A stretch of DNA of 37,327 nt from positions 1 through 37,327 of IMG/VR virus record IMGVR_UViG_3300030101_004315; one strand, written 5' to 3'. Positions within the stretch are counted from its first letter, which is position 1. The number at the start of each line of letters is the position of its first letter. Source of the DNA: a virus. Shown in pieces: positions 1,374 through 37,327 of the stretch. Both the position numbers and the translations under genes were made by a program. Under the pieces are notes generated by a model that saw only the letters and a list, made by a program, of their open reading frames with translations, was not told the DNA's origin and did not search any database.

Positions 1374-1374
1374 C

Positions 1375-4772: not shown

Positions 4773-4774
4773 TT

Positions 4775-4852: not shown

Positions 4853-4889
4853 GGGAAACCATTAGGGGATCACGCCCCGAGGAGGAAAC

Positions 4890-5681: not shown

Positions 5682-5692
5682 AAGGAGGGATC

Positions 5693-6181: not shown

Positions 6182-6183
6182 TC

Positions 6184-9677: not shown

Positions 9678-9678
9678 T

Positions 9679-10059: not shown

Positions 10060-10070
10060 AACAAGTGGGG

Positions 10071-10301: not shown

Positions 10302-10309
10302 GACTACTC

Positions 10310-10660: not shown

Positions 10661-10661
10661 T

Positions 10662-10994: not shown

Positions 10995-11002
10995 AATTAT
11001 CC

Positions 11003-12019: not shown

Positions 12020-12402
12020 TAGCCACTCCAGCGAGCAGGACCATTAGGTCGGATATCGTAATGAACAAAGGTTCTGTAAGTACCTATACCACCATTGGGT
12101 ATTTTTCCAGTGATCACAAGCCGCTCAATTGCGCTTACTAAATCCGCTAAATCGTCATCACGACCACTCCATGGCGCTAAGTCAGCCGCACGAGCATACA
12201 TGTGCTGCGACTTTGTAGCTCCTCCAATTTCTTTATTGTACTCAGGAGAGCGATAGCCGCTGTTAACGCGTATTGGCTTTCCGTACTCGTCACGAATAAG
12301 CTGAAGTGTCCAGGCGAGATGACGCAACCTGTCAGGGTATGCGCACTCATCACCCGATTTACATCGCAGTTCTTTGTAGGAAAAGTTTTGCGGGTAGTCC
12401 AT
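12019..12402 (-). CDS. endolysin, peptidase M15 (D,D- or L,D-peptidase), 127 aa
   Basis: Peptidase_M15_3 signature: VNSGYRSPEYN (46-56), then SQHMYARAADL (65-75) giving zinc ligands His67 and Asp74, and the final ligand in FVHYD (His114). It would cut the peptide part of peptidoglycan at the end of infection. Length matches single-domain M15 endolysins, with no signal peptide and no cell-wall-binding domain, so a holin is needed for export. Cys14 and Cys20 may pair. It starts 2 nt after the giant internal protein and overlaps the fibre gene by one base. Confidence 0.88.
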   Translation of the reverse strand: MDYPQNFSYKELRCKSGDECAYPDRLRHLAWTLQLIRDEYGKPIRVNSGYRSPEYNKEIGGATKSQHMYARAADLAPWSGRDDDLADLVSAIERLVITGKIPNGGIGTYRTFVHYDIRPNGPARWSG

Positions 12403-12403
12403 G

Positions 12404-20508: not shown

Positions 20509-20511
20509 TAG

Positions 20512-21453: not shown

Positions 21454-21983
21454 TATCCGTACATCCTTGCTGCGTTCATATACATTTCTCTTTCGGCATC
21501 CGTTGTGGCGGCGTCAGCATAACCACGAAGAAGCTCGCCACGCTGTTTACTGTGCTGTTGAGCAGTGAGGATACCGGTAATGTTTTGTTCGGCCTGAGAG
21601 CGGATGTCGCCAGCACGCTGGGTGCGCAAGTTCTGCATGGCGGTCTGGAGATTGCCAACCTGTCCTTGGATGGCCGCTTCACCCTGAAGGCCACGCATAA
21701 AGTTGATGCCGCTCATGCCGCTTAGGCCAGTCCCCTGGCTGGCTGCTAGGCTGGCACCCAAAGCACTACCAACAGACCCCTCAAGGTCGCTAATCTGACG
21801 AGTGTAGTCGGCCAGCCCCTGCTGGAACAACTCGTCTTCCTCTTTACGTTGCGCAGACATTGACATGCCCGAGGTATCCATTGCAGGAGTAAACTCACTA
21901 ATAACCTTTTTCCCGCCCTCCACAACGTAAGGGATTGAAGCGGACACAGCGGCGGCAATTAGAGAAGCAGTCAAAGGATCCAT
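21453..21983 (-). CDS. putative small internal virion protein (T7 gp14-like layout), 176 aa
   Basis: The N-terminus is hydrophobic (LTASLIAAAVSASIPYVV, residues 4-21). A Ser/Ala/Gly-rich middle (GSVGSALGASLAASQGTG) and a Gln-rich helical end (QSRAG-type repeats, EQNITGILTAQQHSKQR) follow. This layout, a short protein that can enter a membrane plus helices, is that of the smallest ejection protein of T7- and P22-type virions, which forms the outer-membrane part of the channel. Homology is not proven. The ATG at 21983 follows ggaggctgct on the - strand. Confidence 0.7.
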   Translation of the reverse strand: MDPLTASLIAAAVSASIPYVVEGGKKVISEFTPAMDTSGMSMSAQRKEEDELFQQGLADYTRQISDLEGSVGSALGASLAASQGTGLSGMSGINFMRGLQGEAAIQGQVGNLQTAMQNLRTQRAGDIRSQAEQNITGILTAQQHSKQRGELLRGYADAATTDAEREMYMNAARMYG

Positions 21984-21992
21984 AGCAGCCTC

Positions 21993-23666: not shown

Positions 23667-24531
23667 TTTGTAACGCCTCTTTATAAGCTATTGTAAATGT
23701 AACGTTTTCAGGAGTCCTCGCTATTAGTGAGTTCGTTGCGCTTAGGCTTGCTGATTGGTAAATTATCAATCTAAATCTAACTCTTGATCCTTGGTAAAAA
23801 GGAAGGTCGATGTTCTTTTTTAGCAAATAAAGAGACATTGGATCTGGACAACCCGCTATTGCCGGAATCGTTCCAGCCTCTGATCCCCAAGGGGTTGTAT
23901 TTCTTGAGCTACTCGGCACCATATCAGAACCGCTAGATTTGTAAGTGCCCGCATGAAAACGCTCTTGAAAATCTTGCAGCACAAATTCTTTGCTGTTTAA
24001 CGATCGGTCTTCAGCAGCAACAGCATCATCAGTATCTATAATAATACGAATTCGCTGGTAACTATTACCCGAGCCGTCTCTCATGGGCAGGCTATGAACA
24101 CCGCCGGATAACCAATGAGCACCGGGAGCATTTATTCCAACGCCGTTAATCCACAAACAAACAGAATCTAAGATCACAGGCTTTGGAAACATTGTAGAAA
24201 CAGTAAACACATTGGGAGTAGCATTGTTTTCATAGTCTGCTGGATAAGGATGGGTAAGACTGCTGCGTTTTAACCCTTTTACGCGCGGGTAATCTGTATG
24301 TTGTAAAAAAGGTGGTATTCTAGCAGCGCCAATTTTGGCTGGAGCGTTGGCTGCCCAATCAGCGCCAATATAAGTAAATGTCATGTAGTTTAGAGCGTAC
24401 TTTTGTTTGATGGCAGACAGCGGAACATTGTTAATAAACTGCTCAACATCATCTAGTGCTGTTTGGATTCGACTTCCGTCTATCGTGCCGCCAGCAGCAA
24501 ACTGCTCATCTGTAATAACTCGATTGCTCAT
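23659..24531 (-). CDS. virion structural protein, 290 aa
   Basis: The N-terminal helical segment (DGSRIQTALDDVEQFINNVP, residues about 18-37) is followed by beta-rich sequence with aromatic and Pro residues (KPVILDSVCLWINGVG, YQRIRIIIDTDD). There is no enzymatic motif. Like the 557-aa neighbour it opens with an amphipathic helix and then strands, so both may attach to the same tail component. ATG 24531 is in an ATGA overlap with the 175-aa gene. Function within the tail is not known. Confidence 0.7.
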   Translation of the reverse strand: MSNRVITDEQFAAGGTIDGSRIQTALDDVEQFINNVPLSAIKQKYALNYMTFTYIGADWAANAPAKIGAARIPPFLQHTDYPRVKGLKRSSLTHPYPADYENNATPNVFTVSTMFPKPVILDSVCLWINGVGINAPGAHWLSGGVHSLPMRDGSGNSYQRIRIIIDTDDAVAAEDRSLNSKEFVLQDFQERFHAGTYKSSGSDMVPSSSRNTTPWGSEAGTIPAIAGCPDPMSLYLLKKNIDLPFYQGSRVRFRLIIYQSASLSATNSLIARTPENVTFTIAYKEALQSG

Positions 24532-25055
24532 AATAAAACTTCCCCTGTTCGGGTCGTATTGTTGTCAGGCCTGCCTGTTTGAATGAAACAACCTACCAGC
24601 TTTACTTTCGTTGCACCGCCTGCATTGTTTACTGTAAAACCCGCTGCCTGCACATTATGAAAGTAGCAACCGACAAACAAGGCGGCCCCGCCGCTTTCGA
24701 TTTGCACATAACTACTTGCTGCCTCTTGCGTGTTTGCGTCTTTGACAAAATGGCAGCCTACAAAAACGGTGCTTCCGGTAGCCTTAACAAGGGCTGCTGG
24801 TTGGTCGCCGTCGCACTCGTAAGTAGCGCCATATATAATTGAGGATGAGTCTGCCGATGTTTGCTTAGTAACCACAGCATCAGGATCTGACGAAATCGTT
24901 GTTGCCGGCTTCTCAAGCGAAATAACCTCGTGGTTTCCACTAACAAGTCTTGTCCCATTGTTTCGGCTGTTTTCTTCTAAAAAAGAATCGCCCGGACGAA
25001 GTATTGGCCCAACTGCAACTGCAACAGGGACATCATCGATAATGTTTTTACTCAT
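24528..25055 (-). CDS. small beta-helix-like virion protein with repeated G-C-aromatic coils, 175 aa
   Basis: The C-terminal half has three similar rungs: VFVGCHF, LFVGCYF and KLVGCFI, spaced about 25-35 residues apart. Regular Val/Phe/Gly-Cys rungs are typical of right-handed beta-helices found in phage spikes and needles. The protein is short for a spike, so it may be a tail tip, needle or adaptor that trimerises. The N-terminal half (GDSFLEENSRNNG, then TRLVSGNHEVI) is polar. It starts in an ATGA overlap with the nozzle-like gene, with aggaaagg upstream on the - strand. Confidence 0.68.
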   Translation of the reverse strand: MSKNIIDDVPVAVAVGPILRPGDSFLEENSRNNGTRLVSGNHEVISLEKPATTISSDPDAVVTKQTSADSSSIIYGATYECDGDQPAALVKATGSTVFVGCHFVKDANTQEAASSYVQIESGGAALFVGCYFHNVQAAGFTVNNAGGATKVKLVGCFIQTGRPDNNTTRTGEVLL

Positions 25056-27874
25056 CGACCTTTCCTCCTGTTGCCCTTGAATGTTTGCAGTATTGCAACC
25101 AGCTTTTGCACTTTGAGTTTTGAGGCAACTGATGACGCTGTACCGTACACCATAGCCATAAAAGAATCGCCTTTGCCGTGAGTGCTAATAGCGATTTCGT
25201 TGACCTCGACCTCATCGATTAAATAGTCAGTGGTTGCTGATGTTCCTGTTGACCACTTAGCCGTGCTTGCAGTGCTGTCTGAACCAAAGGTTCTTTTGCC
25301 TGCATTTAGTCGATTTCTAATGCTTTCTTTTTTGCGTATCTCTCGATTAGCAATATAAGGATCTGTGTTGTCCTGACGCTGGCCTGCAAGCATTTTGTAA
25401 TCAGTTCCAACCACGGCGTTGTATAGGCCGTCGTAATCAGTTGAGACTGGGGTATCAGGACCGCTTGTCACCAAAGACGCTCTAAGGCCTCTCAGGCGCG
25501 CTCTGACGCCATCGTTGTTGCCAATCATACCAGTCGTTATAGCCCACTGCACAGGCCGTTCGTGAACAGAAGCTCCGTCAAATGAATGCGTAGCGTCTTT
25601 CTGGCCGCCAGTATCAGGCACAGTGCTTACAGCGCTCCATTTTTGATTGCTGTGACGAAAGCGATCTGAGGCCTGCCACACAATAGCTCTTATAGCGAAT
25701 GTCGTTCCACCAATAGGCTCTGTAGCTTCTGATGCGTGCAAAGTAAAAATTGGATCATTTACTTCGTCTGTATTTCCGCTAATAGTAAACCGAATCATTG
25801 GAAACCTTACCGGCCCCCTTGTTCCGCCAACACCTAGATTAGGCGTGATTACATTCAAGCGTCGATTATCTGTGTTTACAGTAAAATTATAATTTGATTT
25901 GCTGCCTGCTTCTGCGTGAGTTGCAACTTCACTTGTAGAGCATGTCCAGCCCGCTCCGGCAGGAAGCTCTAAAGAAAACTTTAATGCACTGTTTGGATCA
26001 GGAGAACTTTCGCAACGCCAAAAGCTAACGTCGTAACTCTTCTTTTTAAGTCGATCGGTTGTGCCGGTGCCTGTCTCAAACCATTCATCAACAGGATCTA
26101 CAAAAAGCGTCCATCCATTAGAGACATAGCTCGTTGTTTTATCCATAAGAGGAGGAGCAGTTCCTCCAGAAAAACCATTTGTTGGTTCTAATAAGACATA
26201 ATGGCCCTCGCCAAACTTACGAAAATCTTCATTCTCAATGCTTCGATCTAGACCACCACCTAAGCCAAGCTCTGCAATAACATACGATGGATTTTCACTG
26301 TAGGGATTGTCATTCAAAGTATGATTAAGATCCTGAAACCCGCTGATTAAATAATCACCATCGAGATCTGACAGCATAGTCAGGCCGGAAAAAGACGGCA
26401 GATAAGAAATAGCGTTTGTTGTATTTTGATCACGTCCGCCTAGAGGCCAGATGCCCCATGCCTTGCTGTCAAAATCATAACAAAGAATATGATCATCATA
26501 ACAAATATGAATTTTATCTTCGACACCTGAGTAGGTAACAGTTGGCTCACCTTGGTGGTAATACCGAATAGGTGTTTGCCTGTTAGAACCAGCGCCAGCA
26601 TTGCCAGAGTTTCTGTAAAACTCAGAAGCAGGATCTAGCAGGCCTTCCATCCAATGAGCAGTAATAGGATCTGATATTGTTACAATCTTATTTACGTTGG
26701 CAACGAGATGTACGCCCCAAGTTGATATAAAACAAAGACCATACGGTGTTTCACAAAAAGACCGGGCAGACACACAACCAGCCTCTTTACTTGTTTCTGC
26801 TCGCACAACATCAACAACGCCAGGTACAACACTACCTGCTGCGTTTGCTGGCCTAAGCGTAAAGCCAACCACCTCTATATCTGTGAAAACAAAAAGATTG
26901 TTTTTAAAACTGCCAATAGCAGTGGTTTGCCCGTCAGCTTCAAACGCTGCAAAATTAATAGCCATTACCGAGGAAGGCTGACTCACATCGCTAAACCAAA
27001 CAACGTTATTAGCTGTGTATGCAATACGACCACCTAAATTAGCCATGCCTACACTTCGAGGCATATCTCCCCGCTCTAGGTACACGACATTTTTACCATT
27101 AATACCTGGCGTCGGAACAACAGGTGTTACGACAGAGCCCTCACTAAAACCGTTGTGATTGTTGTTGGAAGTTCTGGTGTCGCCTGCAAAAATAAACGGG
27201 TCTGGATTATCGCTGCAAATTCGTTGTCTGTTGCGTTTGTTCGGAACTTCAATGCCCCTGTAAACCCATGTTCCAATATCTGGACTAGCAAAATACACAG
27301 AGTCAGAAATCTGTGCAAAACTAACAGCGCTTAATGACTCAAAACGAAACCCTGTAAAATCAGCATCTCGATGGCTCTCAAAATGCCCAAACAAAGTATG
27401 ATATTCTCGACTACGGTCAGCAAACTCAGAAGTCTTAAACGGAACTAAATAATCAGCATGATTGTTCGTTGTAAGATCATAAACACTAAAAACAACTGCT
27501 ACACTTACGCCATGTATTGTTAAGTAGTGCTTAGAGGCTCCGCCCGTGCCAGTCATATCTGCTTTAGTTGAATCACTAATACCTGCGTCAACAGCAAACA
27601 AAGAAAGTATTTGCCTATTCCCAAATCGAGATCGATAAAGAAAACTTCCTAAGTGTTTTGTATAGCCCTGTGTGCCGTTGTTGCTGTTTGCTACTGGCAT
27701 GGTCACAGATGTATCAATCTGCGCTCTTTGTCCGAATCCTGCACGCACTTCTAAGGGACTGACAGAAGTCAGCCTAAACATGTTGCGCATCCATTTGATA
27801 CCGTCAGGAGATCGCAAGTCCATCCCGCCTTTGGGCAGAATATCTATTCTTTGGGGTCGGACCTTCATAGCCAT
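25052..27874 (-). CDS. tail nozzle/hub-like protein (P22 gp10 / T7 gp12 type), 940 aa
   Basis: Large all-beta protein. The middle region has propeller-like blades with patterns such as AYTANNVVWFSDVSQPS, FKNNLFVFTDIEVVGF and ETPYGLCFISTWGVHLVANV. These are like the beta-propeller nozzle proteins that close the short tail of P22- and T7-type phages. It immediately follows the head-tail adaptor gene, the expected position for a nozzle. The C-terminal 350 residues are more variable and may carry a fibre-binding platform. No enzyme motif is seen. ATG 27874 has only one base between it and the adaptor stop. Confidence 0.75.
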   Translation of the reverse strand: MAMKVRPQRIDILPKGGMDLRSPDGIKWMRNMFRLTSVSPLEVRAGFGQRAQIDTSVTMPVANSNNGTQGYTKHLGSFLYRSRFGNRQILSLFAVDAGISDSTKADMTGTGGASKHYLTIHGVSVAVVFSVYDLTTNNHADYLVPFKTSEFADRSREYHTLFGHFESHRDADFTGFRFESLSAVSFAQISDSVYFASPDIGTWVYRGIEVPNKRNRQRICSDNPDPFIFAGDTRTSNNNHNGFSEGSVVTPVVPTPGINGKNVVYLERGDMPRSVGMANLGGRIAYTANNVVWFSDVSQPSSVMAINFAAFEADGQTTAIGSFKNNLFVFTDIEVVGFTLRPANAAGSVVPGVVDVVRAETSKEAGCVSARSFCETPYGLCFISTWGVHLVANVNKIVTISDPITAHWMEGLLDPASEFYRNSGNAGAGSNRQTPIRYYHQGEPTVTYSGVEDKIHICYDDHILCYDFDSKAWGIWPLGGRDQNTTNAISYLPSFSGLTMLSDLDGDYLISGFQDLNHTLNDNPYSENPSYVIAELGLGGGLDRSIENEDFRKFGEGHYVLLEPTNGFSGGTAPPLMDKTTSYVSNGWTLFVDPVDEWFETGTGTTDRLKKKSYDVSFWRCESSPDPNSALKFSLELPAGAGWTCSTSEVATHAEAGSKSNYNFTVNTDNRRLNVITPNLGVGGTRGPVRFPMIRFTISGNTDEVNDPIFTLHASEATEPIGGTTFAIRAIVWQASDRFRHSNQKWSAVSTVPDTGGQKDATHSFDGASVHERPVQWAITTGMIGNNDGVRARLRGLRASLVTSGPDTPVSTDYDGLYNAVVGTDYKMLAGQRQDNTDPYIANREIRKKESIRNRLNAGKRTFGSDSTASTAKWSTGTSATTDYLIDEVEVNEIAISTHGKGDSFMAMVYGTASSVASKLKVQKLVAILQTFKGNRRKGR

Positions 27875-27875
27875 G

Positions 27876-28673
27876 TTAGAAACTCATCTTAATAAGAACA
27901 GAATCATTCGACCCCATTAGCCTACGCTTGGTAAGATAATCAGTCATCATCTGAACCTGTGAAGCCATTTCGCGCAGTAATAACTCGTTTACGTTTTGAT
28001 CTCTAATCATGTAACGCTTGGCCGCTAACAGCACTACAAGCTCATGAAACTGTGGTAGTAAATTGCCTTCAATGTACAAGTTGGTATTTGCATAATCCAT
28101 TGTATATCGAGGCACAGGCAAAAACTCTAAAATCATATTAGTTGGGGGTGTGTTGTTGAAAAACAAAACATTGCCATCAAGATAATATGTCCAAGAGAAC
28201 ATCGATAACTCTTGAGCTTTTGCCCCATCAACCTGGCGAAAACGATCAATCCTATTTTTTTGGTCAGGATTCCAAGTGTATAAATCTAAAATTGTATCTA
28301 TTGGCGGATGTACCAGAGTAGAGCCTGCTGGATTATACCAATCCGCAATAGCATTTGGACCCATAACAGCTTTTTGATTGCCGTTAGCCAGTGAGCTTCG
28401 CAGCAAATTAGAATCTAAATCCAAACTAAACCTAAAAGGTTTTACGCCATCAGCTTGCGAGGGGTAACTGCTGTCAGTTGTAGTTCCTGTGCTAAATTCA
28501 CAAATAGCACCATACACATGGGGATTTGCTTCCCTGATAATCTGCCGCCATTGATCCAGCCCAAACTCTAGATACCTTTGTACTTGAGCCGTCGTAATAA
28601 ACGTTGCGTCAGGGTCATCAACATAGTCACGAAATAAATCATGAGCCTCTGGTATTTTTAATCCCTGACTCAC
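27876..28673 (-). CDS. head-tail adaptor (head completion) protein, 265 aa, GTG start
   Basis: The N-terminal helices resemble adaptor proteins (AHDLFRDYVDDPDATFITTA, QVQRYLEFGLDQWRQI). A beta middle follows, then a helical C-terminus typical of podovirus adaptors (PQFHELVVLLAAKRYMIRDQ, then EMASQVQMM). It would ring the portal and link capsid and tail. Location between portal and nozzle genes agrees. The start is GTG 28673, in a GTGA overlap with the portal stop, with ggagg seven bases upstream. Confidence 0.78.
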   Translation of the reverse strand: MSQGLKIPEAHDLFRDYVDDPDATFITTAQVQRYLEFGLDQWRQIIREANPHVYGAICEFSTGTTTDSSYPSQADGVKPFRFSLDLDSNLLRSSLANGNQKAVMGPNAIADWYNPAGSTLVHPPIDTILDLYTWNPDQKNRIDRFRQVDGAKAQELSMFSWTYYLDGNVLFFNNTPPTNMILEFLPVPRYTMDYANTNLYIEGNLLPQFHELVVLLAAKRYMIRDQNVNELLLREMASQVQMMTDYLTKRRLMGSNDSVLIKMSF

Positions 28674-30583
28674 ATTCCACCTCCAGCCCGTGCATCAAAC
28701 CCCTCATAGGTTCGAGCTAGTTCTTGATTTTCTGTTCTCTGAGCAGCGCCTTCAGGTGTGCCGCCTTGCTGTTGAGCCCCTGCCATTGCTCCTTGGTTCA
28801 TGCCCATGCCCTGCTGAGGTTGTGGCTGTTGCACAGGGTATACCGGCTGACTCAGTTGTTGCACCACTTGCGGGTTGCCTTGCGCTGCTACAGCAATAAG
28901 AATACCTTGTACGTTTTCTTGGATATCAAGCGGCAAGTCTTGGAACTCTTCGCTTGTTGTGTACTCTTGGAACACCTCGGCAATCTCAATGATTGGATCG
29001 GTGCGCAACACAACGACTTCATTACCTTCAAGCGCAGCTTCTAATATGTCGAGTGCGTAGTTGTAGTTGCGAACAGACTGATGAATCATTGGGTCTTGAC
29101 CAAAGAAGTTAACGGCTTTGCGTGCTTCTTCAGGTGTGAGAAGGCCCATTTGAGCAAGTTGGATTGCTCTTTGCTCTCGTTCTTTGATGTGTGACTTAAA
29201 TAATGACCCAGCCTCAAAGAACACATCAGGGTCATCACTAAGGTCTGTTCCCTTGATCATCTTGAAGAACATACCGCCGTCTTGCCTAAACACTCGAATC
29301 ATACGAGATTTGGTATAGTGCTGTTTGGCGAGCTTAATCATCTCAACAGACATTTCTCGTGCCGCTTTTTCAATCCCATCTAGAACTGATTGCAACTGGG
29401 AAGTATCTTGAGCAACCAGTGCATTGATTGCTTTGCCTGACTCTACTCCGCTAACTCTTTTACCTAATGACGTGCCGTGAATGCCTGCTAAGTCCAGCAT
29501 CTCACTGTGGCTGCGATTCACATTGTCAAGAACATAGCCAGGCAACGGATTTAGCGGAAGTTGTTTAGGAGCGATCGAAGCTGGGTTATATCGAATGACA
29601 GCACCCGGTTCATTGGTGACTGTATCGACACCACTATTATTAGCAATAATCCACTGCAAATTACCCATGCGACGAATGTTAGTAATGATCGCCGAACGTT
29701 GCGCATTGTATTCTTTTTGTACTTGGATAAGAGGAGCAATCGCTCCCTTGCCGTGCAAGCGGCCTGGCAGTTGATGAAATCTAATATGGACGATGGGAAA
29801 CTTTTGACTACCATCCCACTTCTTTGCCTCCCAGGCGATTTGATTACCAATAACAATGCAATGCTTGTTGTGTTCACGGCTCCAATACTCAAGAACCTCG
29901 TAGCGATCTTGATCGTTAGCTGTGTCTGTAGCGTAGGTAAAGTTGATGCGATCATCACCAAGCTTAGTAACAACCGTATCTACTTCGCTAAGATCAACTT
30001 TTGGATAAAGGCGCTCAATAGCACTGCCATATAAATAGGTTCGCTTGATTAGCCACTCTGATTTATGGATGCAATCAACGCTTCGCTGACAAAAGACATC
30101 ATACGGTGGTACGACCTCAGCAGTAATTTGATCCTTTTCCATATCGAAATAAGTGTGAATAAACACATTGCCACACACGATTTGCCAGCGCTGGGCGTGC
30201 CTAAATACTTCGGGTATTTTGCAAGCTTCCCAAAGATACTGAATCATAGCGGAATCAGTCTTTGCTTTGATCATGTCTGCCGTAGTCATGCTTGCAGGTC
30301 GGACACCAATATAAGGCACTGTTACTGACAGCATAGATTGCAATCGATTGTAGATTGGCAACAGCAGGTTTACAGTAACTCGACTAACACCTGGCTCAGA
30401 CGGCTCAGTTACCCAAGTTCCACCATGTTGCTGATCTTTAAATCTACCATATTGCAGGCCATCAATAAATCGTCTGCATATATCCCAGACTCGTATTTCG
30501 CCGTAAAGCCAGCGCTCTGTTTCATATTTTAATTCGCCAATATGCCCAGCTTCATCTGAATACTTGGTTTTTTTTCGAGCCAT
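28670..30583 (-). CDS. portal protein, 637 aa
   Basis: Long soluble protein with portal features: an N-terminal helical wing (DICRRFIDGLQYGRFKDQ), conserved core strands (ITAEVVPPYDVFCQRS), the SEWLIKRTYLYG segment, long stem/crown helices and a Gln/Gly-rich flexible C-terminus (about 580-637). The region ISIEMIKLAK-type helices near residue 400 matches the stem. The size fits podovirus portals. It forms the dodecameric DNA gate to which terminase docks. It starts in a TAATG overlap with a 55-aa membrane protein and is separated from the capsid gene by a terminator. Confidence 0.85.
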   Translation of the reverse strand: MARKKTKYSDEAGHIGELKYETERWLYGEIRVWDICRRFIDGLQYGRFKDQQHGGTWVTEPSEPGVSRVTVNLLLPIYNRLQSMLSVTVPYIGVRPASMTTADMIKAKTDSAMIQYLWEACKIPEVFRHAQRWQIVCGNVFIHTYFDMEKDQITAEVVPPYDVFCQRSVDCIHKSEWLIKRTYLYGSAIERLYPKVDLSEVDTVVTKLGDDRINFTYATDTANDQDRYEVLEYWSREHNKHCIVIGNQIAWEAKKWDGSQKFPIVHIRFHQLPGRLHGKGAIAPLIQVQKEYNAQRSAIITNIRRMGNLQWIIANNSGVDTVTNEPGAVIRYNPASIAPKQLPLNPLPGYVLDNVNRSHSEMLDLAGIHGTSLGKRVSGVESGKAINALVAQDTSQLQSVLDGIEKAAREMSVEMIKLAKQHYTKSRMIRVFRQDGGMFFKMIKGTDLSDDPDVFFEAGSLFKSHIKEREQRAIQLAQMGLLTPEEARKAVNFFGQDPMIHQSVRNYNYALDILEAALEGNEVVVLRTDPIIEIAEVFQEYTTSEEFQDLPLDIQENVQGILIAVAAQGNPQVVQQLSQPVYPVQQPQPQQGMGMNQGAMAGAQQQGGTPEGAAQRTENQELARTYEGFDARAGGGM

Positions 30584-30750
30584 TACAGCAAGTCCTCACC
30601 AGAAATATATGTAGGGTATTGCTCTTTAGTCGGCTGACTCATCTCTACTTTTGCTTTGTGCGCTAAAATCGCAATGCAGCCTAGAGCCACCACATAAAAA
30701 CCCACAGCTAACATAGCAATGGCAATACAAACTTCTAAAAATATCGACAT
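30583..30750 (-). CDS. small membrane protein between capsid and portal genes, 55 aa
   Basis: Two overlapping hydrophobic stretches (FLEVCIAIAMLAVGFYVVAL, then GCIAILAH) cover about residues 4-30. A hydrophilic tail (KVEMSQPTKEQYPTYISGEDLL in two parts) follows. The ATG at 30750 directly follows the T-tract of the capsid terminator, and the only Shine-Dalgarno-like sequence is inside the terminator stem, so it can be read only from read-through RNA. An upstream TTG at 30783 lies in the hairpin loop and is unlikely. Role unknown; capsid/portal membrane assembly or superinfection exclusion are possible. Confidence 0.6.
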   Translation of the reverse strand: MSIFLEVCIAIAMLAVGFYVVALGCIAILAHKAKVEMSQPTKEQYPTYISGEDLL

Positions 30751-30800
30751 AAAAAAAGCCCCCGGCAGATAGAGCCCTTGCAACTCTACCCACCGAGGGC
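30751..30800 (-). terminator. strong intrinsic terminator after the major capsid gene
   Basis: On the - strand, a 17-bp stem pairs 30784-30800 with 30758-30774 (all pairs Watson-Crick or G-U) around a 9-nt loop and is followed by seven T residues (complement of 30751-30757). It starts 21 nt after the capsid stop and would stop most transcription into the portal genes. Confidence 0.88.
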
Positions 30801-30821
30801 CTTGGGATCAAGCGTAAGCTA

Positions 30822-32207
30822 TTATGCTCGCTTATATTCAATCCCAGCCATCACGCCAATAGCGCGTGGAAGCTCGGAAACCATATTGTAATACTGCTTC
30901 CAGAAACCTTCACGAACGTCAGTCAAGCGGCCAGATACCTTATCACGCTTCTGGGTAACAATGTCACCACCGTCGGTGAACTCTTGGAACCCACCCGGAC
31001 GTAGGGTGTAGGTGTTGATGGTGTCACGCACCAAGAAGTAGATGACACCAAACGGCACATCTTTGCTGACCGTAATCGGCATGTCTTCAAACGCCAGATC
31101 GCCAGGACGATGCCCAAGGTCGCCACTCGTTTCACCAGGCATGTAACGAATGTTTTCTTGAGCAAGGTTGCGATACTGAGCACGGGTGAAGCGGTGCATG
31201 ATAATCGTGTCAACATCCTCTTCACAGCGCTCTGCGATTGCATCGACAACTAACTGCATGTCTTCGAGCGTTAGCGGCTGACCACTGCTCAAGCCACCTG
31301 CCGGAGCAGCAGCTTGATCTGATTTAAAACCAAAACCACGAAGAATGGTGTTAGTAGTTCCGGTGCGTACGTTACCGAAACAATCATCTGAAGCAGTGCC
31401 GAAAGCCAAGCAGTTAAGGCCATTAATTTCGTTAACCTGCGGCCGAGCATCGTTACCAATAGCGGTGACACGCAACATGACTACAAGATCCGTAGCGCCA
31501 ACGGCTGAAGCGTCGGGTCCTAACTTACCAGCACCTGCGCCGGAGTTGAATGTCGCAGTACCCAAGGCTGTATCAACTGCTGTGCATTCAAACTCAGTAA
31601 CATTACCAGCCCCCCCTCCATCATTATTATTGAGCAGAACCCAGTTTTTTGAGTCATCAGCCGGGACATGCCAGAACTGGTAAAATGCACCAACCACAAC
31701 GTGATTAGCACCTGAAATACGACGCCCAGTATTCGTTGCTTCGCTTGTGTTATCAATAAGATAACCGTGGAAGCCCTGACCCGTGAACATGTCTTTGTTC
31801 ATCGAGTTGCGCACATCTTTTTCCATGCCACGCATTTCAGAGAACATTGCACCAACAAAGGCAGCTTCAGAGCCACCACCAGCACCTGGCGCTTTAGCTT
31901 CTGCTTGGCCAGTAACTTGGAACGATGAATACAGGTACTTCGCATCAACAGCGAGGTCCAAGTAGCTTTGGTTGCCAGCTTCAGGAACAGCAACAAAATT
32001 AGCGGGGGCACCAGTGCTTTCCGTCAAATAAGCAATGCCGTCGTTACGACCAGTGTGAAGAGGGATAATAACTTTGTCGCCGGACCACTCGTGCGGACCT
32101 TCGGCAAAGAGGCGATAAATGAGGGCTTCTTGATTCAACTGCTCGCGAATCGGGCCTTCATACTGCTCCTTGAGGAGCTTACTAATTGTGCTTAATTTAG
32201 CAGACAT
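30822..32207 (-). CDS. major capsid protein (HK97-like fold), 461 aa
   Basis: Follows the scaffold gene. The N-terminus is helical (LSTISKLLKEQYEGPIREQL), with an E-loop-like segment and a P-domain helix (PLTLEDMQLVVDAIAERCEE). It ends in conserved strands (GDIVTQKRDKVSGRLTDVRE, then FWKQYYNMVSEL), as in HK97-like coat proteins. It is likely the most abundant virion protein. The ATG has aggaaaag upstream on the - strand. It lies between a promoter (via scaffold) and a strong terminator. The middle has an inserted Gly/Asn-rich region (about 190-240) that may decorate the surface. Confidence 0.87.
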   Translation of the reverse strand: MSAKLSTISKLLKEQYEGPIREQLNQEALIYRLFAEGPHEWSGDKVIIPLHTGRNDGIAYLTESTGAPANFVAVPEAGNQSYLDLAVDAKYLYSSFQVTGQAEAKAPGAGGGSEAAFVGAMFSEMRGMEKDVRNSMNKDMFTGQGFHGYLIDNTSEATNTGRRISGANHVVVGAFYQFWHVPADDSKNWVLLNNNDGGGAGNVTEFECTAVDTALGTATFNSGAGAGKLGPDASAVGATDLVVMLRVTAIGNDARPQVNEINGLNCLAFGTASDDCFGNVRTGTTNTILRGFGFKSDQAAAPAGGLSSGQPLTLEDMQLVVDAIAERCEEDVDTIIMHRFTRAQYRNLAQENIRYMPGETSGDLGHRPGDLAFEDMPITVSKDVPFGVIYFLVRDTINTYTLRPGGFQEFTDGGDIVTQKRDKVSGRLTDVREGFWKQYYNMVSELPRAIGVMAGIEYKRA

Positions 32208-32219
32208 TTTCTTTTCCTG

Positions 32220-33089
32220 TTATCGACGCCTTCCGGCACCAATAGTTTTTCTAAGTTCTTTTAGAGTTATTCCTTTTTTGGGTTCAGATAACTCTTTTGG
32301 TGAAGACGACCCAGCATGGCTAGGTCGAGGAGGTGTATCAGGTGTTTCGCCTTTCTGCTTAGGGGCTTTCTCAGCAGGTCGGCTCATACCTAGTCGCTTC
32401 AAGATTAAATCTTCTTGCTGTTGTTCCCATGACTTAAAACTGTCAGCCAAATCATTGACCTTCAAGCTTGGGTCTTGAGACAAACTCTGAAGAATAAATA
32501 TTCTTGCAGCTTTTGCATCATGCACGCCAATGGTTCCAGTTACTTGCTCAATCTCAGATTCAATTTTTTGAACCCGCTCTTGCACACGCATCTGGTTGAC
32601 GCTCTGCTCTGACGTACTTGCTTGCGCTCGTAACGTCTTTAACTCAGCAGCCATATCCTTCATGACGGACACCATGTCAGAATCAGCGTACTCATCTAGT
32701 GAGTCTAGCCGCTCTAACAACGGATCTGCCGGTTCAGGTTCCGGCTGTATCTCTTCTCCGGGCTGCTGTTTCAGAGCTTCGAGTTGCTTAAGTAACAACT
32801 CATTCGTCTCTTTGAGCGTGTTGACCTGATCTACTTTGTCTTTAAATCGGCCGTATGGAATACGATCAGGCTCACTTTCCCCTGACTCAGGTTGCGCTTC
32901 TTGTTCCTGAGTTGGTTCTGGAGTCGGCTGCGCTTCCGCCTCCGGTGATGCTTCTGTCGTTTGCCCCTCTACGGTTTCGTTTGCAGTAGGTTCAGGTGCC
33001 GGTGCTGTTGATTCATTAGCGGGTGCCGATTCCGTTTCTTGTTTTACGGCTAAGTTTTTCTGAATCTCAGCAAGAGATGGAAATGCCAT
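32220..33089 (-). CDS. capsid scaffold protein, 289 aa
   Basis: Low-complexity N-terminus rich in Glu, Pro, Thr and Ala (about residues 16-75). Coiled coils follow at about 85-110 (VDQVNTLKETNELLLKQLEA) and 130-185, then a basic C-terminus (LKELRKTIGAGRRR). This is the typical make-up of scaffold proteins: disordered acidic section, helical middle, basic capsid-binding tail. It lies directly before the capsid gene with 12 nt between. The ATG at 33089 has ccaggagcga upstream. No protease motif is seen, so scaffold removal is probably without cleavage. Confidence 0.82.
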   Translation of the reverse strand: MAFPSLAEIQKNLAVKQETESAPANESTAPAPEPTANETVEGQTTEASPEAEAQPTPEPTQEQEAQPESGESEPDRIPYGRFKDKVDQVNTLKETNELLLKQLEALKQQPGEEIQPEPEPADPLLERLDSLDEYADSDMVSVMKDMAAELKTLRAQASTSEQSVNQMRVQERVQKIESEIEQVTGTIGVHDAKAARIFILQSLSQDPSLKVNDLADSFKSWEQQQEDLILKRLGMSRPAEKAPKQKGETPDTPPRPSHAGSSSPKELSEPKKGITLKELRKTIGAGRRR

Positions 33090-33155
33090 GATGTCGCTCC
33101 TGGCTTAGCGGAAATACACGCCAATCGTAGGCTGGCGAGCCACCTTTATTTAAGC

Positions 33156-33183
33156 ATTAGAAATATTTTTTGCTAAAAGTCAA
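33156..33183 (-). promoter_or_regulatory. sigma70-like promoter for scaffold and capsid genes
   Basis: On the - strand: -35 TTGACT (complement of 33178-33183), 16-nt spacer, -10 TCTAAT (complement of 33156-33161); each hexamer matches the consensus at five of six positions. It overlaps the terminase stop codon. The predicted start, near 33149, gives a leader of about 60 nt before the scaffold ATG. The 83-nt gap 33090-33172 also has a 5-bp inverted repeat, CGCCA/TGGCG (33119-33137). Confidence 0.65.
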
Positions 33184-34882
33184 GGTTGTCTCCCAACACT
33201 GATGGCTGTTGAGACATATTGTATTTACTTTGACCGAGCGGTTCTAATGTGCGCCAGGCCAATCCAGTTTTTGATTCAAAACGGACTATATCTTCAGGCG
33301 TTTGAGGGTGAAACTCCTTGAAAATCTGCATCCTCATTTCGCCAATTTGATCTAATCCCTCAAGAGCTAGGGCTGTTGCAAAGATCATATCTGAGTGACA
33401 ACCAGCGCTGTGATCAGGTTTGCCGTTTTTGTCATAAACAAAAGATGACATTTCATTGGTCAGCACAGGCGGTAGGTCTTTTAATTTTTTATGGCTTACA
33501 AGTTTGCGCAGCCTGTTAAGGATCAGGTTACGCTTAGTAGCATCCGTCCAAAATCCAAGCTTTTCGACATACCGCTCTGCCATTTTGTCATACTGATAAC
33601 GCCTGTAGAGTCGCGGGTACTCATCTAAATAAAAGTCTTCTTGTACAGACACGCCTGCATTGTTGACTTCGATTACAGCCAATGCGTTGTTGTACTGTCG
33701 GCCAAGTGCGTTTGCTTCTTTTGCAAACTGATGAACTGGGCATTTTTTATAAATCCAGGCTACTGGTCTGTATTCAGCTTTTGATGTGACATCGATGACC
33801 ATTGCTGCCGAATAGTCACCATCGTTAGATCCTGACGCAACGTCAATACCCATAACATAGGTGCAGCCAAGCACTGGTTTTTCAATAATACATTCTGTTT
33901 CGCTAGTTTCTACAGGCTCATACTGTTCTTCAAAGAACGAATCACCAGACGACAAGAACGCATCGCTTGGTGCGCCGGGGTACTCTTGGTCAAACGTGCG
34001 CCAGTCACCATCGCACTTGTTTTCTAGTGCCCATTTCATCCAGCTAACCTGCGAAGGGCTAAGCTTGTACTTGTTGACGTACTCTGCTTCGTCGTTGGTT
34101 AGTGTGCGTTCGAGTGTTTCTATTTCACGATCAGAGTATTCAATGTAATCGCCTTTGCGATCTGTATACATGCCGTGTTGTTCGTCACGCATGATTTGAT
34201 AATCACGAAAAGTAAACCAAGGGAGGAACAGTTTGTAGTAACCGTTCTCTGTACGCCACCAATGGTAGAAGTAGTTGAAGCTGTTAGCGGTTGTTTCAAC
34301 AAATGCGCAGCCTCGGTCGGTCAAAGCCTGCATAGCAGCCGTAAAAACTTCCTTTTGTTTGTCCCAGAACGCTACTTCGGAGCAGTGTAGGTACTGCACA
34401 GTCGAGCCACGGAGCTTGTCAGGGCTGTTTGCCGTAGCAATCGTAATAAAACCGGTGTGTTTAGCAAAAACTAGCTCTTTTTTGGTCGAGTGCTTAAGCG
34501 GAAACTCCTCTTTGACCCACTCAGTTAGATTTTCGTAGTAGGTTTGGTAGATTTTAAAGAGTTTTGCTGCCGCTTCAGCGTCATGAGCAAGCACAATGCA
34601 CTTTGTGTTCTCTGCAAACAGTGTTCGCCAAAAGAAAAAGCCAGCAATAAACGTTGATATGCCCATTTGCCGGGCTTTGAGTATAGCCAGACGGTTCAGC
34701 CCCTTGTCGAGGATGTACTCAAGGACAATTTTTTGCGCATCGTTAGGTATAAGCGGGGCCAAAAGCCCAGACTTAAGCACGATTTTTAGTTCATGCTCAC
34801 AAAAGAAGAAAAAATCTTCCTGGCAATGTTTAATATAGGCTTTTTGATACTCAGATAACGCTGTTTTGCGTTTTCTGGGCAA
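33173..34882 (-). CDS. terL: terminase large subunit, 569 aa, TTG start
   Basis: The ATPase half has a Walker A-like KARQMGIST (69-77) and a Walker B-like LHCSEVAFW (about 168-177), followed by the coupling segment FVETTANS. The nuclease half has GIDVASGSNDGDYS, then VIEVNNAG, and a terminal acidic HSDMIFATALA. It cuts concatemers and drives DNA into the prohead through the portal. Length is normal. The start TTG 34882 has gaggcagg upstream on the - strand and follows the 48-aa basic gene by one base. Packaging mode cannot be inferred here. Confidence 0.9.
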   Translation of the reverse strand: MPRKRKTALSEYQKAYIKHCQEDFFFFCEHELKIVLKSGLLAPLIPNDAQKIVLEYILDKGLNRLAILKARQMGISTFIAGFFFWRTLFAENTKCIVLAHDAEAAAKLFKIYQTYYENLTEWVKEEFPLKHSTKKELVFAKHTGFITIATANSPDKLRGSTVQYLHCSEVAFWDKQKEVFTAAMQALTDRGCAFVETTANSFNYFYHWWRTENGYYKLFLPWFTFRDYQIMRDEQHGMYTDRKGDYIEYSDREIETLERTLTNDEAEYVNKYKLSPSQVSWMKWALENKCDGDWRTFDQEYPGAPSDAFLSSGDSFFEEQYEPVETSETECIIEKPVLGCTYVMGIDVASGSNDGDYSAAMVIDVTSKAEYRPVAWIYKKCPVHQFAKEANALGRQYNNALAVIEVNNAGVSVQEDFYLDEYPRLYRRYQYDKMAERYVEKLGFWTDATKRNLILNRLRKLVSHKKLKDLPPVLTNEMSSFVYDKNGKPDHSAGCHSDMIFATALALEGLDQIGEMRMQIFKEFHPQTPEDIVRFESKTGLAWRTLEPLGQSKYNMSQQPSVLGDNLDF

Positions 34883-34883
34883 C

Positions 34884-35030
34884 TTAACGCCTGCCTCGTT
34901 TCATCGGCGCTTTACGACCTGCTTTTTTTGCGGGTTTTTTTGTGCCGTTCTTTTTTTTCATTGCTTTTTTGGCCTGTTCCTTACCTTTTTTTGTGTAAGG
35001 AAATTTTTTACCACTAGGTCCTACGGGCAT
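34884..35030 (-). CDS. small Lys/Arg-rich basic protein, 48 aa
   Basis: The protein opens MPVGPSGKKFPYTKKGK. The rest is almost all Lys, Arg, Ala, Gly and Pro, giving an extremely basic chain likely to bind DNA. The GKKFPYTKKG opening is one I recognise from small phage proteins near terminases, but the function is not known. ATG 35030 is picked because aaggaggcg lies just upstream; the longer frame (to 35099) overlaps the DUF5872-like gene. It overlaps that gene by 17 nt and precedes the terminase by one base. Confidence 0.7.
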   Translation of the reverse strand: MPVGPSGKKFPYTKKGKEQAKKAMKKKNGTKKPAKKAGRKAPMKRGRR

Positions 35031-35445
35031 TACGCCTCCTTTTTGTTGTCCGCCGCTTTCTAGATTTACGACGCATTGATGTACCTGCTGCAAGACCATG
35101 CCTTGAATATTGCTTGCCCTTGCGCGTTGCTGCCGCTTTTTTTCTTTCCGCAGCCGCCAGTTTCTTACGCCCTGCCGCTGTTCGTTTTAGAGCTTCTCTT
35201 TTCTTTTTAGGCAAGTAAACCCCTTTACCGCCTTTTTTAGACCAGCCCCATTTTTGCTTGCCCCATTTTTTAAGACTATTGCTTTTGCTGCTGGGTTTCT
35301 TACCTGAGTATTTACCACCCATGTCTTTGTAATATTTTACGGCAAGCTGCATGGCTCGGGCGCTGTGTTTGCCGCCCATTTTTCTTCGTGCTTTAGCTTT
35401 CGCTCGTGCCCACTTTTTAGGGTCACGTTTCGTCGCTGTAGCCAT
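35014..35445 (-). CDS. DUF5872-like very basic protein, 143 aa
   Basis: DPKKWARAKAKARRKMGGKH (8-27), QLAVKYYKDMGG, then SLKKWGKQKWGWSKKGGKG and YLPKKKREAL fit the pattern I associate with DUF5872 proteins of phages and large DNA viruses. The C-terminal 40 residues are almost all Arg, Lys and Ala. It is probably a nucleic-acid-binding protein; an enzymatic role is not evident. It overlaps the neighbouring basic gene and abuts the upstream membrane protein. Recognition of the DUF is from memory. Confidence 0.75.
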   Translation of the reverse strand: MATATKRDPKKWARAKAKARRKMGGKHSARAMQLAVKYYKDMGGKYSGKKPSSKSNSLKKWGKQKWGWSKKGGKGVYLPKKKREALKRTAAGRKKLAAAERKKAAATRKGKQYSRHGLAAGTSMRRKSRKRRTTKRRRNARRT

Positions 35446-35798
35446 TAGACTTCCTTGCCTATAACAGCGCTAATTTTTGCGTAGTGATTACGCATTTCAC
35501 CCAGGCCTTCTTTAATTAAGGCTTCAGTATCTTGCAGTTCTTTTTCAATAGACTCTAATCGAGTTACCCACTGAAGGCGCTCTTGGTCGTACTTGTTGAC
35601 AACATCCATGAAGCGGTCACGAACCTCTGCTTCTCTTCGATTGCAGTCTTCCATTTGCTCTCGCAGTTGTTTTTGGAAGTTATCGGTTAGCAGATCTAAC
35701 CTTTGACTCATTTTTAGATACAGCCAAAAGATTGCCCCAGAGGCCAGGCCTAGCGCCCCAAAGTCTGCAACCATCTGTAAGATCTGTGAGGAGTCCAT
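35445..35798 (-). CDS. membrane-anchored coiled-coil protein, BhlA/holin-like layout, 117 aa
   Basis: An N-terminal hydrophobic helix (GALGLASGAIFWLYLKM, about residues 14-30) is followed by a long charged coiled coil (QKQLREQMEDCNRREAEV and onwards to 105). One N-terminal membrane segment plus coil resembles BhlA/UviB-type holin-like proteins and some lysis regulators. The sequence does not prove a lysis role. It overlaps the following gene by one base and pairs with the 56-aa coiled-coil/membrane protein upstream, suggesting they act together. Confidence 0.65.
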   Translation of the reverse strand: MDSSQILQMVADFGALGLASGAIFWLYLKMSQRLDLLTDNFQKQLREQMEDCNRREAEVRDRFMDVVNKYDQERLQWVTRLESIEKELQDTEALIKEGLGEMRNHYAKISAVIGKEV

Positions 35799-35968
35799 TA
35801 TTTCATCAAGTTTGCTGTAATGTACGGGCCGAGAACACTCATCACTCCCATAGCTGGAGCAACAATCCAGATTAACTTATCGAGTTTATTTTCGATTTTT
35901 TTTAGTCGAGCGTCAACGCCATCGAGGCGGGTTTGATTACGAACAACTTCAGTTTCTACTGTTTGCAT
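35798..35968 (-). CDS. small XhlA-like coiled-coil plus membrane protein, 56 aa
   Basis: An N-terminal coiled coil (NQTRLDGVDARLKKIENKLD, residues 11-30) leads into a hydrophobic C-terminal segment (LIWIVAPAMGVMSVLGPYI, 32-50). This is the layout of haemolysin XhlA-type lysis accessory proteins. The frame runs from ATG 35968 to TAA 35800-35798, overlapping the ATG of the 117-aa gene (TAATG) and ending exactly where expected in the gene string. It is too short for usual gene-length cut-offs and could easily be missed. Function in lysis is inferred. Confidence 0.7.
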   Translation of the reverse strand: MQTVETEVVRNQTRLDGVDARLKKIENKLDKLIWIVAPAMGVMSVLGPYITANLMK

Positions 35969-36192
35969 TATCGAGCCCCCTTGCGACGGTTTGTTCGGCG
36001 AGACACTACCCGCAGGTTCCTTTTGCCGTTGCTACCGCCCTTGCTCAATGGTTTTTTGTGGTCAACCTCTCTAGGGTCGCCAACCTTTAGACCCGAGCGA
36101 CGCCTGGCCGTATTGCGTTTTGCCCGGTTCTTTTTTTGTTTTCTTTTGCTGTGGTAGGTGTCGTATTCACGACGGTAGTTTCGTTTTCGCAT
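35968..36192 (-). CDS. small HNH-like nuclease, 74 aa
   Basis: The basic N-terminus (MRKRNYRREYDTYHSKRK) precedes VDHKKPLSKGGSNGKRNLRV (43-62), which carries the Asp-His, Gly-Gly-Ser-Asn and Asn-Leu residues of a compact HNH motif. A conserved terminal RRTNRRKG follows. No CxxC zinc pairs are present. Small HNH proteins are common next to terminase genes and may help DNA cutting or packaging. ATG 36192 is chosen for a TAATG overlap with the upstream gene. Length is short, so activity would need a partner or dimer. Confidence 0.75.
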   Translation of the reverse strand: MRKRNYRREYDTYHSKRKQKKNRAKRNTARRRSGLKVGDPREVDHKKPLSKGGSNGKRNLRVVSRRTNRRKGAR

Positions 36193-36482
36193 TAGCAGTT
36201 CCAAGCCCGCAGAGATTTATTGATTCTGCTGTTTGGATCACGCCTGGTTTTGGCGCTGGTTAGTTTTTTCTTCATGCCCTTCATGCGAGCACAGAAACTA
36301 CGCCTACGAGCGGCGTCTTTTTTGGTTTTTGGCTTAGGAGCGGGAGGCCTTAGTTTACCGCCGGTTGCTCGATTGTAACTTCTTCTGCCTTTAGCATTCA
36401 GGCCACCCTTGGGGTTTTTACCTTCTTTACGCTGCCAGGCTGGGGATCGTCGTCGTCTTCGAGATTTTCTACGCCGGCTCAT
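36192..36482 (-). CDS. DUF6321-like basic protein, 96 aa
   Basis: Very basic; SPAWQRKEGKNPKGGLNAKG (13-32) is followed by RRSYNRATGG, SFCARMKGMKKKLTSAKTRR and DPNSRINKSLRAWNC. This order is what I recall of the DUF6321 family, found in tailed phages and of unknown function. The regular Lys/Arg and conserved Cys suggest DNA or RNA binding. The overlap with its neighbours (TAATG at 36192 and a 4-nt overlap with 36479) places it in the same operon as the other basic proteins. Confidence 0.75.
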   Translation of the reverse strand: MSRRRKSRRRRRSPAWQRKEGKNPKGGLNAKGRRSYNRATGGKLRPPAPKPKTKKDAARRRSFCARMKGMKKKLTSAKTRRDPNSRINKSLRAWNC

Positions 36483-36748
36483 TTCCTCTTTCCTTCAACG
36501 ATGCGCAACACTTCTGCTGGAAGCTTGCCTTTGATGTCTTCATCTGTTGCATTGAGTGAGGTGTCAGTTAGACCTTCGGCAAGTTTGCTTACAGCCCGAA
36601 GTGCAACCTCTAGGCCTTTTGCTCCATGGTCTTCAACCATCGCTTTATCAACGATTTCTAATAACATTTTGTTGATATCGGTTTGACTAAGATCCTTATG
36701 ATCTCGCCGATTGATGGTTTGTAGGATGGTGTTGAGATTGTCTGCCAA
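36479..36748 (-). CDS. hypothetical helical protein, 89 aa, TTG start
   Basis: Mostly helical, mildly acidic protein (ADNLNTILQTINRRDHKDL, then LLEIVDKAM and VALRAVSKLAEGL). It could be a small terminase subunit because of size and position at the head of the packaging genes, but no helix-turn-helix is clear, so this is only a possibility. The start TTG 36748 has aaggaat about 7 nt upstream; it lies inside the 3' end of the upstream gene (53-nt overlap). A shorter start further in is possible. Confidence 0.6.
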   Translation of the reverse strand: MADNLNTILQTINRRDHKDLSQTDINKMLLEIVDKAMVEDHGAKGLEVALRAVSKLAEGLTDTSLNATDEDIKGKLPAEVLRIVEGKRK

Positions 36749-37327
36749 AGAACCATTCCTTCAGATCAAGCTTAGCCTGTAAGACTTGATGCTTTGTTTC
36801 AATGATGTCGCCCGAGTAGCACAATTTGGACAGATCAAACAAATCAATGATGCCCAAAAGATGCGCAACCATCGACTCATTGTGCAGTTCAGCTAAATAT
36901 TGAGAGCACTCACGAACCCAAAGGTGGCCATCCGGAAGAACCATTTTTTCCGTGTCATGACCAAACCCTGTTTTCTGTCTTTCATTGCTCAACCACACCA
37001 GTTTATCAGTTTCAACTGTCGCCATTCGACGAGCACGCTGTAATTGCTTCATGTCTCGATACTTGTCTACTGCATATTCCCAAGCCTCACGATTGCCCCA
37101 GTCATACAGCACATAACGACTACCGTCCGTCATGCCCCAGACCACGAAGTCGTAAAGCTCACCCATTACAGGCCTGAAAACTTTTTCTGATTTTTTAGAA
37201 TTTTTTACCCAAAACTCAATGCGAGCTATGGCACAATCTGGGTGCATACATGGACCAGTGCGCTGAAAGACAAAATACTTAGTCCCGTGGACGCCACACT
37301 GTATCTTGTTGCGATGACCGGCCAAGC
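36696..37327 (-). CDS. hypothetical protein, at least 209 aa (5' end probably outside window)
   Basis: The frame is open to the window edge. A TTG at 37325 could be the start, but a start outside is equally possible. The N-terminal part has Cys/His residues (KIQCGVHGTKYFVFQR, then CMHPDC) that may bind a metal. The middle is aromatic-rich (YDFVVWGMTDGSRYVLYDWG), and the C-terminal half is helical. No family is recognised. As first visible gene of the late arm it may be a packaging factor, but this cannot be shown. Confidence 0.65.
   Translation of the reverse strand, partial: LAGHRNKIQCGVHGTKYFVFQRTGPCMHPDCAIARIEFWVKNSKKSEKVFRPVMGELYDFVVWGMTDGSRYVLYDWGNREAWEYAVDKYRDMKQLQRARRMATVETDKLVWLSNERQKTGFGHDTEKMVLPDGHLWVRECSQYLAELHNESMVAHLLGIIDLFDLSKLCYSGDIIETKHQVLQAKLDLKEWFFGRQSQHHPTNHQSARS

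Follow-up and report, generated by a model that had tools for sequence, protein, structure and literature searches.

The scaffold and major capsid genes of an uncultured bacterial virus are the subject of the analyses presented here; the virus is IMG/VR record IMGVR_UViG_3300030101_004315 (37.8 kilobases), of which we analysed positions 1–37,327 (the window). On the minus strand, to which all window coordinates below refer unless stated otherwise, the untranslated leader before the scaffold gene can fold into a 27-nucleotide (nt) H-type pseudoknot (33145–33119), whose pairing is conserved by covariation across lineages. We propose that scaffold and capsid constitute a discrete unit in which this pseudoknot acts on the start of scaffold translation and a long 3′ stem, located after the capsid gene, ends or cuts the RNA, a proposal that we consider evenly poised between right and wrong. 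The new part is the leader pseudoknot, which suggests control of translation or of messenger RNA (mRNA) life as well as of dose, and which was overlooked, together with the conserved start region at 33104–33085, in an earlier note that had described a self-contained promoter-to-terminator unit. Such a unit is itself ordinary, with precedents among T7-like phages, LUZ100 for example.

The relatives in which the leader was compared were reached by two routes. Searching by protein similarity led to a first family of contigs in IMG/VR (terminases 73–100% identical, scaffold proteins 47–98% identical), and in the window plus 10 of these contigs the intergenic region before the scaffold gene holds two conserved blocks. 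Scanning for the start block on its own (GCCAGGAGCGNNATCATGGC) returned 19 stretches, the 10 already known and 9 new ones, and all 9 new matches are starts of scaffold-like open reading frames (ORFs) belonging to five further lineages with terminases 50–54% identical. Because five of the ten lineages were found by the start region only, the pseudoknot was not selected for in them. The upstream-block scan returned 13 stretches, 10 from the first family and 3 unrelated; matches in L024, L026 and L033, and 12 in genome_contigs, were judged from their context to be chance, with no comparable start region after them. The leader occurs in 20 contigs, of which 10 rows were used, after eight exact duplicates and the near-identical L017 and L018 (the same element) had been dropped.

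In particular, the pseudoknot can be formed in all ten lineages, with a length of 24–28 nt and the H-type order S1a–4 nt–S2a–(0–1)–S1b–(4–5)–S2b. In the window S1a (33145–33142) pairs with S1b (33132–33129) and S2a (33137–33133) with S2b (33123–33119), the loops being 33141–33138 and 33128–33124, and a GA is kept in the last loop. Both interleaved stems are kept by compensatory change. Stem S1 is AGGY with RCCT, or TGGC with GCCA in L128, so that pair 1 is A–U or U–A and pair 4 is U–G, C–G or U–A; one clade has CRCC-N/N-GGYG as stem S2, the others CGGTG/CACCG, CGGCG/AGCCG or CGGT/ACCG, with exchanges at pair 2 (G–C/A–U), pair 3 (C–G/G–C) and pair 4 (C–G/U–A). On a hand alignment 85 of 89 cells are paired, a count reached by none of 10,000 permutations of whole 3′ arms; for seven lineages, 4 of 5,040 permutations of the 3′ halves reach the observed pairing. 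A second alignment, for which a covariance model did the fitting, covers 17 contigs (10 distinct rows) and has 94.6% of its cells paired, compared with 86.8% when shuffled, and pairing falls to 15–43% (at most 42.7%) when the partners are slid; its covariation score is 0.318 against 0.162 for shuffles, none of 500 reaching it. As a background, start sites of unrelated loci can form this geometry in 14 of 496 cases, and shuffled copies of each leader in 7–60 per 1,000 (0.7–6%).

The covariance model, applied to 100 loci, gave 17 strong matches, all within the scaffold-leader family, 7 of them being training rows or close to these by construction. Five weak matches (E-value of 0.38 or worse) were taken as chance; L104, the sole one inspected, lies in coding sequence. 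Each of nine records has one full-length match to the model (one record with a further partial match of 12.6 bits), and the leader sequence itself, at up to three mismatches, matches once in the window, so the leader is not a repeated phage promoter. A small upstream ORF within the leader was also considered and set aside, its frames not being kept (by eye).

The pseudoknot also has a fixed position ahead of the scaffold gene. From S2b there are 15–20 nt to the Shine–Dalgarno sequence AGGAG and 27–32 nt to the ATG in all ten lineages, with 17 nt between pseudoknot and Shine–Dalgarno sequence in the window; on the other side, 10–15 nt separate the end of a −10-like hexamer from S1a in eight of ten lineages, namely those with TTGAC about 40 nt upstream at that spacing. 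These distances would place the knot at the 5′ end of the mRNA and just beyond the stretch that the ribosome first covers. The start region itself (GCCAGGAGCGACATCATGGC, 33104–33085; AGGAG 33101–33097, start codon 33089–33087) is kept in the window and in the 10 contigs reached via protein similarity, 44301 having TA for AC. It can form a GCCA:TGGC hairpin that includes the TG of the start codon, for which covariation provides no support because it never varies. The first codons of the scaffold (MAFPSLAEI; 33089–33060) appear, by eye, nearly unchanged in DNA over five first-family lineages, the protein diverging soon after.

Upstream of the leader, a promoter-like site (33183–33156) overlaps the terminase stop and consists of TTGACT (33183–33178), a 16-nt spacer and TCTAAT (33161–33156), from which an RNA start at about 33149 is predicted. 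The earlier note had called it near-consensus, which is an overstatement: 10 of the 12 letters agree with the consensus, but position −11 is C rather than A, for which reason a consensus scanner omits the site, and matches of five plus five of six letters with spacers of 16–18 number 2 in the window against a mean of 6.0 in 50 shuffles. The site is backed by its position and its conservation in relatives, and not by its match to the consensus. TTGAC is present in nine of ten lineages (L128 has TTGAG and TTGAA instead), and the hexamer 16 nt downstream of it matches at five of six letters in five lineages, at four in two and at three in one. In L121, L123 and L124 an ORF of 239–271 amino acids (aa) on the opposite strand separates terminase from scaffold, and the block of TTGAC, leader and start stays with the scaffold gene despite this. 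Because of the intervening ORF, TTGAC cannot be kept there for terminase coding, and transcription coming from the terminase is hardly able to reach the scaffold gene. Further, the codons AAC CTT GAC at the terminase tail are identical in all five first-family lineages, although identical columns make up just 3 of the 70 conserved six-fold degenerate columns of that gene and 46 of the 165 two-fold ones, the tail ones included; the chance of an identical triplet is about 0.003, for a triplet picked after the fact. From TTGAC conservation, the opposite-strand ORF and the synonymous constraint on the last terminase codons together, it is likely that a real promoter, perhaps dependent on an activator, lies before the scaffold. 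We also observe that GTCAA, about 20 nt before TTGAC in L121, L123 and L124, forms an inverted repeat with it, a possible operator or site for an activator.

A candidate for such an activator, of the Mor/C late transcription type, is encoded on the plus strand at 3408–3830 (PHROG 532, late transcriptional activator, E = 1.7e-5; Pfam Mor below the cut-off) and could act at the scaffold promoter. Among nine records it was positive in G000, near-identical in G001 and weak in G002, with no match in the other six, which may be fragments. The opposite-strand ORF (L121 7696–8511, L123 2095–2814, L124 5003–5722, on the minus strand with the scaffold on the plus strand) carries a HEL(T/A)HY(M/V)H (HExxH) motif; the L123 copy has a weak SprT-like match below the cut-off (E = 0.097), and the ORF is not found at that place in the window.

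At the 3′ end of the unit, a G+C-rich stem (30802–30756, G–U pairs included) directly follows the capsid gene and runs into TTTTTTT (30757–30751). It has 20 pairs by the maximum count of the scanner and 22 in the fold, and the 91-nt fold is far more stable than expected (z = −5.0; none of 200 shuffles as stable), so that the stem and T7 reported in the earlier note are confirmed. Terminator-like sites as a class mean little, with 23 against 20.1 expected in 18000–37327 and 29 against 17.5 expected in 1–18000; the post-capsid stem is the longest such stem listed in either half, the next having 10 pairs. Stem length alone is not unique, since other helices of 18–31 pairs occur on the minus strand of the window, including 402–317 (31 pairs) and 10206–10101 (24 pairs), mismatches allowed. 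A stem of 21–34 pairs, single mismatches and bulges allowed, lies just after the capsid stop in all 12 contigs compared, a comparison from which the near-duplicates L122, L125, L126 and L129, and L005, L007, L008, L012 and L128, whose contigs end within or before the capsid gene, were left out. A T-run follows directly in 7 of the 12 and is absent in 5, so that termination, the role ascribed to the stem by the earlier note and one that its T7 still favours in the window, cannot be the sole conserved role. Within the window clade two-sided changes occur in 3 of 22 stem pairs, all from 40985, in which the stem is kept by compensatory changes without a T-run; elsewhere in the clade the stem ends in T6–T7 and termination is expected. 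In L121, L123, L124 and L127 a 36-pair consensus stem lies inside a small gene, with two-sided changes at 7 of the 36 pairs, four cells broken or gapped and no T-run, L127 having TTTT three bases beyond the stem. Distant relatives are likewise divided: Jasmine, an Arthrobacter phage (L117 after 6215), and ctEqG8 (L119 after 1212) have a stem and T5 right after the capsid gene, and in ctLwi270 (L118), L036 and L037 no T-run accompanies the stem. The stem is thus the feature common to all 12 contigs, and this is consistent with processing or 3′ protection. Rfam gave only three weak matches at this 3′ end, far below the cut-off.

The spacing of the genes agrees with a discrete unit. The gap between terminase and scaffold is 83 nt, that between scaffold and capsid 12 nt and that after the capsid 71 nt, and all junctions from the 55-aa ORF and portal through to 10310 measure −8 to +9 nt. 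The earlier statement that the other late genes abut or overlap is correct for these junctions and fails upstream of the terminase, where the mechanically called ORFs are separated by 131 and 169 nt. As for the self-contained unit, gene anatomy with its two gaps, the conserved block that travels with the scaffold and the opposite-strand ORF in three lineages all speak for it, and what has to be given up is the near-consensus match of the promoter and termination as the only conserved role of the stem.

Considering a potential mechanism, we suggest that a local late promoter (TTGAC-16-nnTAA(T/A), perhaps aided by an activator) would start the mRNA near 33149, that the pseudoknot would be its first structured part, followed by the Shine–Dalgarno sequence and start of the scaffold, and that scaffold and capsid would be translated from this one RNA. 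The long post-capsid stem would then end the RNA, or cut and protect it, and only part of transcription would reach the portal and tail genes. Scaffold has to be produced in proper proportion to coat and is frequently recycled. The P22 scaffolding protein is said to regulate its own synthesis, and control of scaffold synthesis next to coat would be expected biology; we know of no pseudoknot in P22 scaffold control, and autoregulation is suggested here by analogy only. The most likely target of the pseudoknot is the start of translation: knot and start region would be bound by a protein, for which free scaffold (or coat) is the most plausible candidate, and scaffold synthesis would thereby be repressed or tuned. 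More specifically, the pseudoknot might be an operator that lets free scaffolding (or coat) protein shut scaffold synthesis down and restart it while shells assemble, a tentative idea that is somewhat unlikely to be right in this form. If true, a phage RNA knot would link translation with the assembly of capsids, in a lineage to which no close cultured relative was found. To our knowledge, little is known of how phages set the scaffold:coat ratio through RNA; a second, unrelated knot, backed by covariation and lying exactly ahead of a scaffold gene, opens this question to testing with a reporter of 100 nt.

Several observations weigh against this interpretation. In a nested fold the leader shows no excess stability (z = −0.04, with 99 of 200 shuffles reaching its stability), the pseudoknot stems are short (4 and 4–5 base pairs) and S2 pair 5 is broken in four of nine lineages. 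The alignment behind the count of 85 of 89 was made by hand to fit the knot, and automatic MAFFT alignment places L121 and L124 one position off. On the fitted alignment two of five measures are no better than shuffles, 129 of 500 doing as well for pairs with a two-sided change and 405 of 500 for further pair types, and S1 has no two-sided change there because L128 is set off by one. Since the ten lineages are related, independent changes are fewer than the counts suggest. As to the promoter, 40985 has no −10-like hexamer 16 nt after TTGAC (by eye) and none was found in L128. Finally, autoregulation by scaffold or coat is an analogy and the ligand of the knot is putative.

Among known systems, our best guess is that the knot acts as an operator controlling scaffold translation in the manner of T4 gene 32. 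Two reports (PMC3014915, PMC535899) describe, in T4/RB69 gene 32 mRNA, an H-type pseudoknot operator of about 28 nt in the leader, upstream of the ribosome binding site; fold, size and location in a phage mRNA leader are alike, and it is plausible that the scaffold leader would work in a similar way. It is not a member of that operator type, because the gene is a different one (gene 32 encodes a single-strand-binding protein) and UUAAA repeats are missing: between knot and start, UUAAA occurs in none of ten lineages and a single UAAA in two. In addition, the T4 knot lies 67 nt from the start, as given in a review, against 27–32 nt here. The pseudoknot operator of Escherichia coli rpsO (S15), mentioned in PMC3014915, likewise controls from the leader the translation start of the binding protein, in a host ribosomal gene. 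Pseudoknots that serve frameshifting are another case: they are looked for behind a slippery site where gene 10A ends, and are predicted for phiIBB-PF7A (PMC3080317) and not found for AP5 (PMC4283147); they too lie near the capsid gene, whereas the knot here is in the untranslated scaffold leader. No pseudoknot ahead of a scaffold or capsid gene in a phage was present among the literature matches listed, from a search whose coverage mostly excludes subscription papers; two matches that name both deal with frameshifting within the capsid gene.

The unit as a whole is closest to capsid cassettes of the T7 type. LUZ100, a T7-like Pseudomonas phage, is described in PMC10134795 as having a local promoter at the capsid gene and a strong terminator immediately after it; a single rho-independent terminator downstream of gene 10 (capsid) in phiIBB-PF7A (PMC3080317) and a terminator between structural genes in KP34-like phages (PMC4411677) are also reported. 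The terminator after the capsid and the logic of the unit are alike; here, in contrast, the scaffold is included, the promoter-like site resembles the host sigma-70 type and a leader pseudoknot is present. Where such a cassette has its local promoter the window has the conserved TTGAC-16-nnTAA with C at −11, a match that alone is no better than shuffles. Single-subunit RNA polymerase (PF00940) was not found, although the control scan detected it nowhere either, and no polymerase family appeared among the selected ORFs scanned.

The main rival to translational control is mRNA stabilization, and both may hold. A plain T7-like dose unit, in which the knot would stabilize the 5′ end against 5′-end-dependent decay, the 3′ stem would block 3′ exonucleases and no repressor would be involved, is in our estimate unlikely; it would accommodate the strong 3′ stems in 12 of 12 contigs, the LUZ100 precedent for the unit and the few unpaired nt expected at the 5′ end, because of the short distance from hexamer to S1a, but neither the narrow distance from knot to Shine–Dalgarno sequence nor the apparent DNA-level conservation of the first scaffold codons (by eye) would be needed for end protection. 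A better chance, although short of even, is given to the view that the post-capsid stem is mainly a processing or stabilizing hairpin of the ribonuclease III (RNase III) type, which would part the scaffold–capsid message from the portal message and protect it; this concerns the 3′ end only and is compatible with the unit that we propose. Stems of 21–34 pairs are long enough for RNase III, and their occurrence in all 12 contigs with a T-run in only 7, the stem of 40985 kept without one, the two-sided changes in the 36-pair stem and the stems without a T-run in L036, L037 and ctLwi270 all argue in that direction. Arguing for termination instead are the textbook T6–T7 ending in the window clade and the stem plus T5 in Jasmine and ctEqG8; moreover, the 36-pair stem derives from only four sequences, with its broken or gapped cells, and long helices occur elsewhere on the minus strand.

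Were there no local promoter at all, a single transcript begun at the far right end would cover the late operon, and the role of the leader would be confined to translation. The missing −11 A in the window clade, the five-plus-five matches expected by chance and the lack of a clear −10 in 40985 and L128 favour such an arrangement, which we nevertheless regard as quite improbable in view of the three lineages that keep TTGAC behind an opposite-strand ORF, away from the terminase, and of the synonymous constraint at the terminase tail. A structured RNA at the transcript start with a strong terminator-like stem 2.3 kilobases further on would also suit an antitermination RNA, comparable to the HK022 put sites, by which RNA polymerase would get through the post-capsid stem; considering that the knot is kept in lineages without a T-run as well, that antitermination would not need a fixed distance from knot to start codon and that put sites are hairpin pairs and not a pseudoknot, this is very improbable. 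Least credible is a known riboswitch or ribosomal-protein operator: several leader pseudoknots of similar size lie near a Shine–Dalgarno sequence, but Rfam gave no match at the gathering level in the window and none up to E = 5 at 32990–33240.

The window carries its early genes on the plus strand and its late genes on the minus strand (the labels are ours), the late block running terminase (34882–33173), scaffold, capsid, 55-aa ORF, portal (30583–28670) and further structural genes. The scaffold (289 aa, 33089–32220) was assigned from its location before the capsid and a Pfam Phage_scaffold match under the cut-off of the model (E = 3.6e-4), with no PHROG match, and the major capsid protein (461 aa, 32207–30822) from PHROG 14242, major head protein (E = 1.4e-24). 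No close cultured phage was found: the best matches in the phage collection are 26–35% identical over about one-third of the protein for the capsid and 28% identical for the terminase. The window capsid had no match in plasmids or in genome_contigs, the L121 capsid and the L127 and L128 scaffolds had none in the phage collection, and the scaffold start pattern occurred in none of 369 genomes of one bacterial class. The largest ORF listed (2219 aa, 12404–19063) has no Pfam or PHROG match. The 55-aa ORF (30750–30583; homologues 40–96% identical) has its start codon directly after the T-run, and its likely Shine–Dalgarno sequence (GGGGG), the only such letters, lies inside the post-capsid stem; therefore the stem and translation of that gene should exclude each other.

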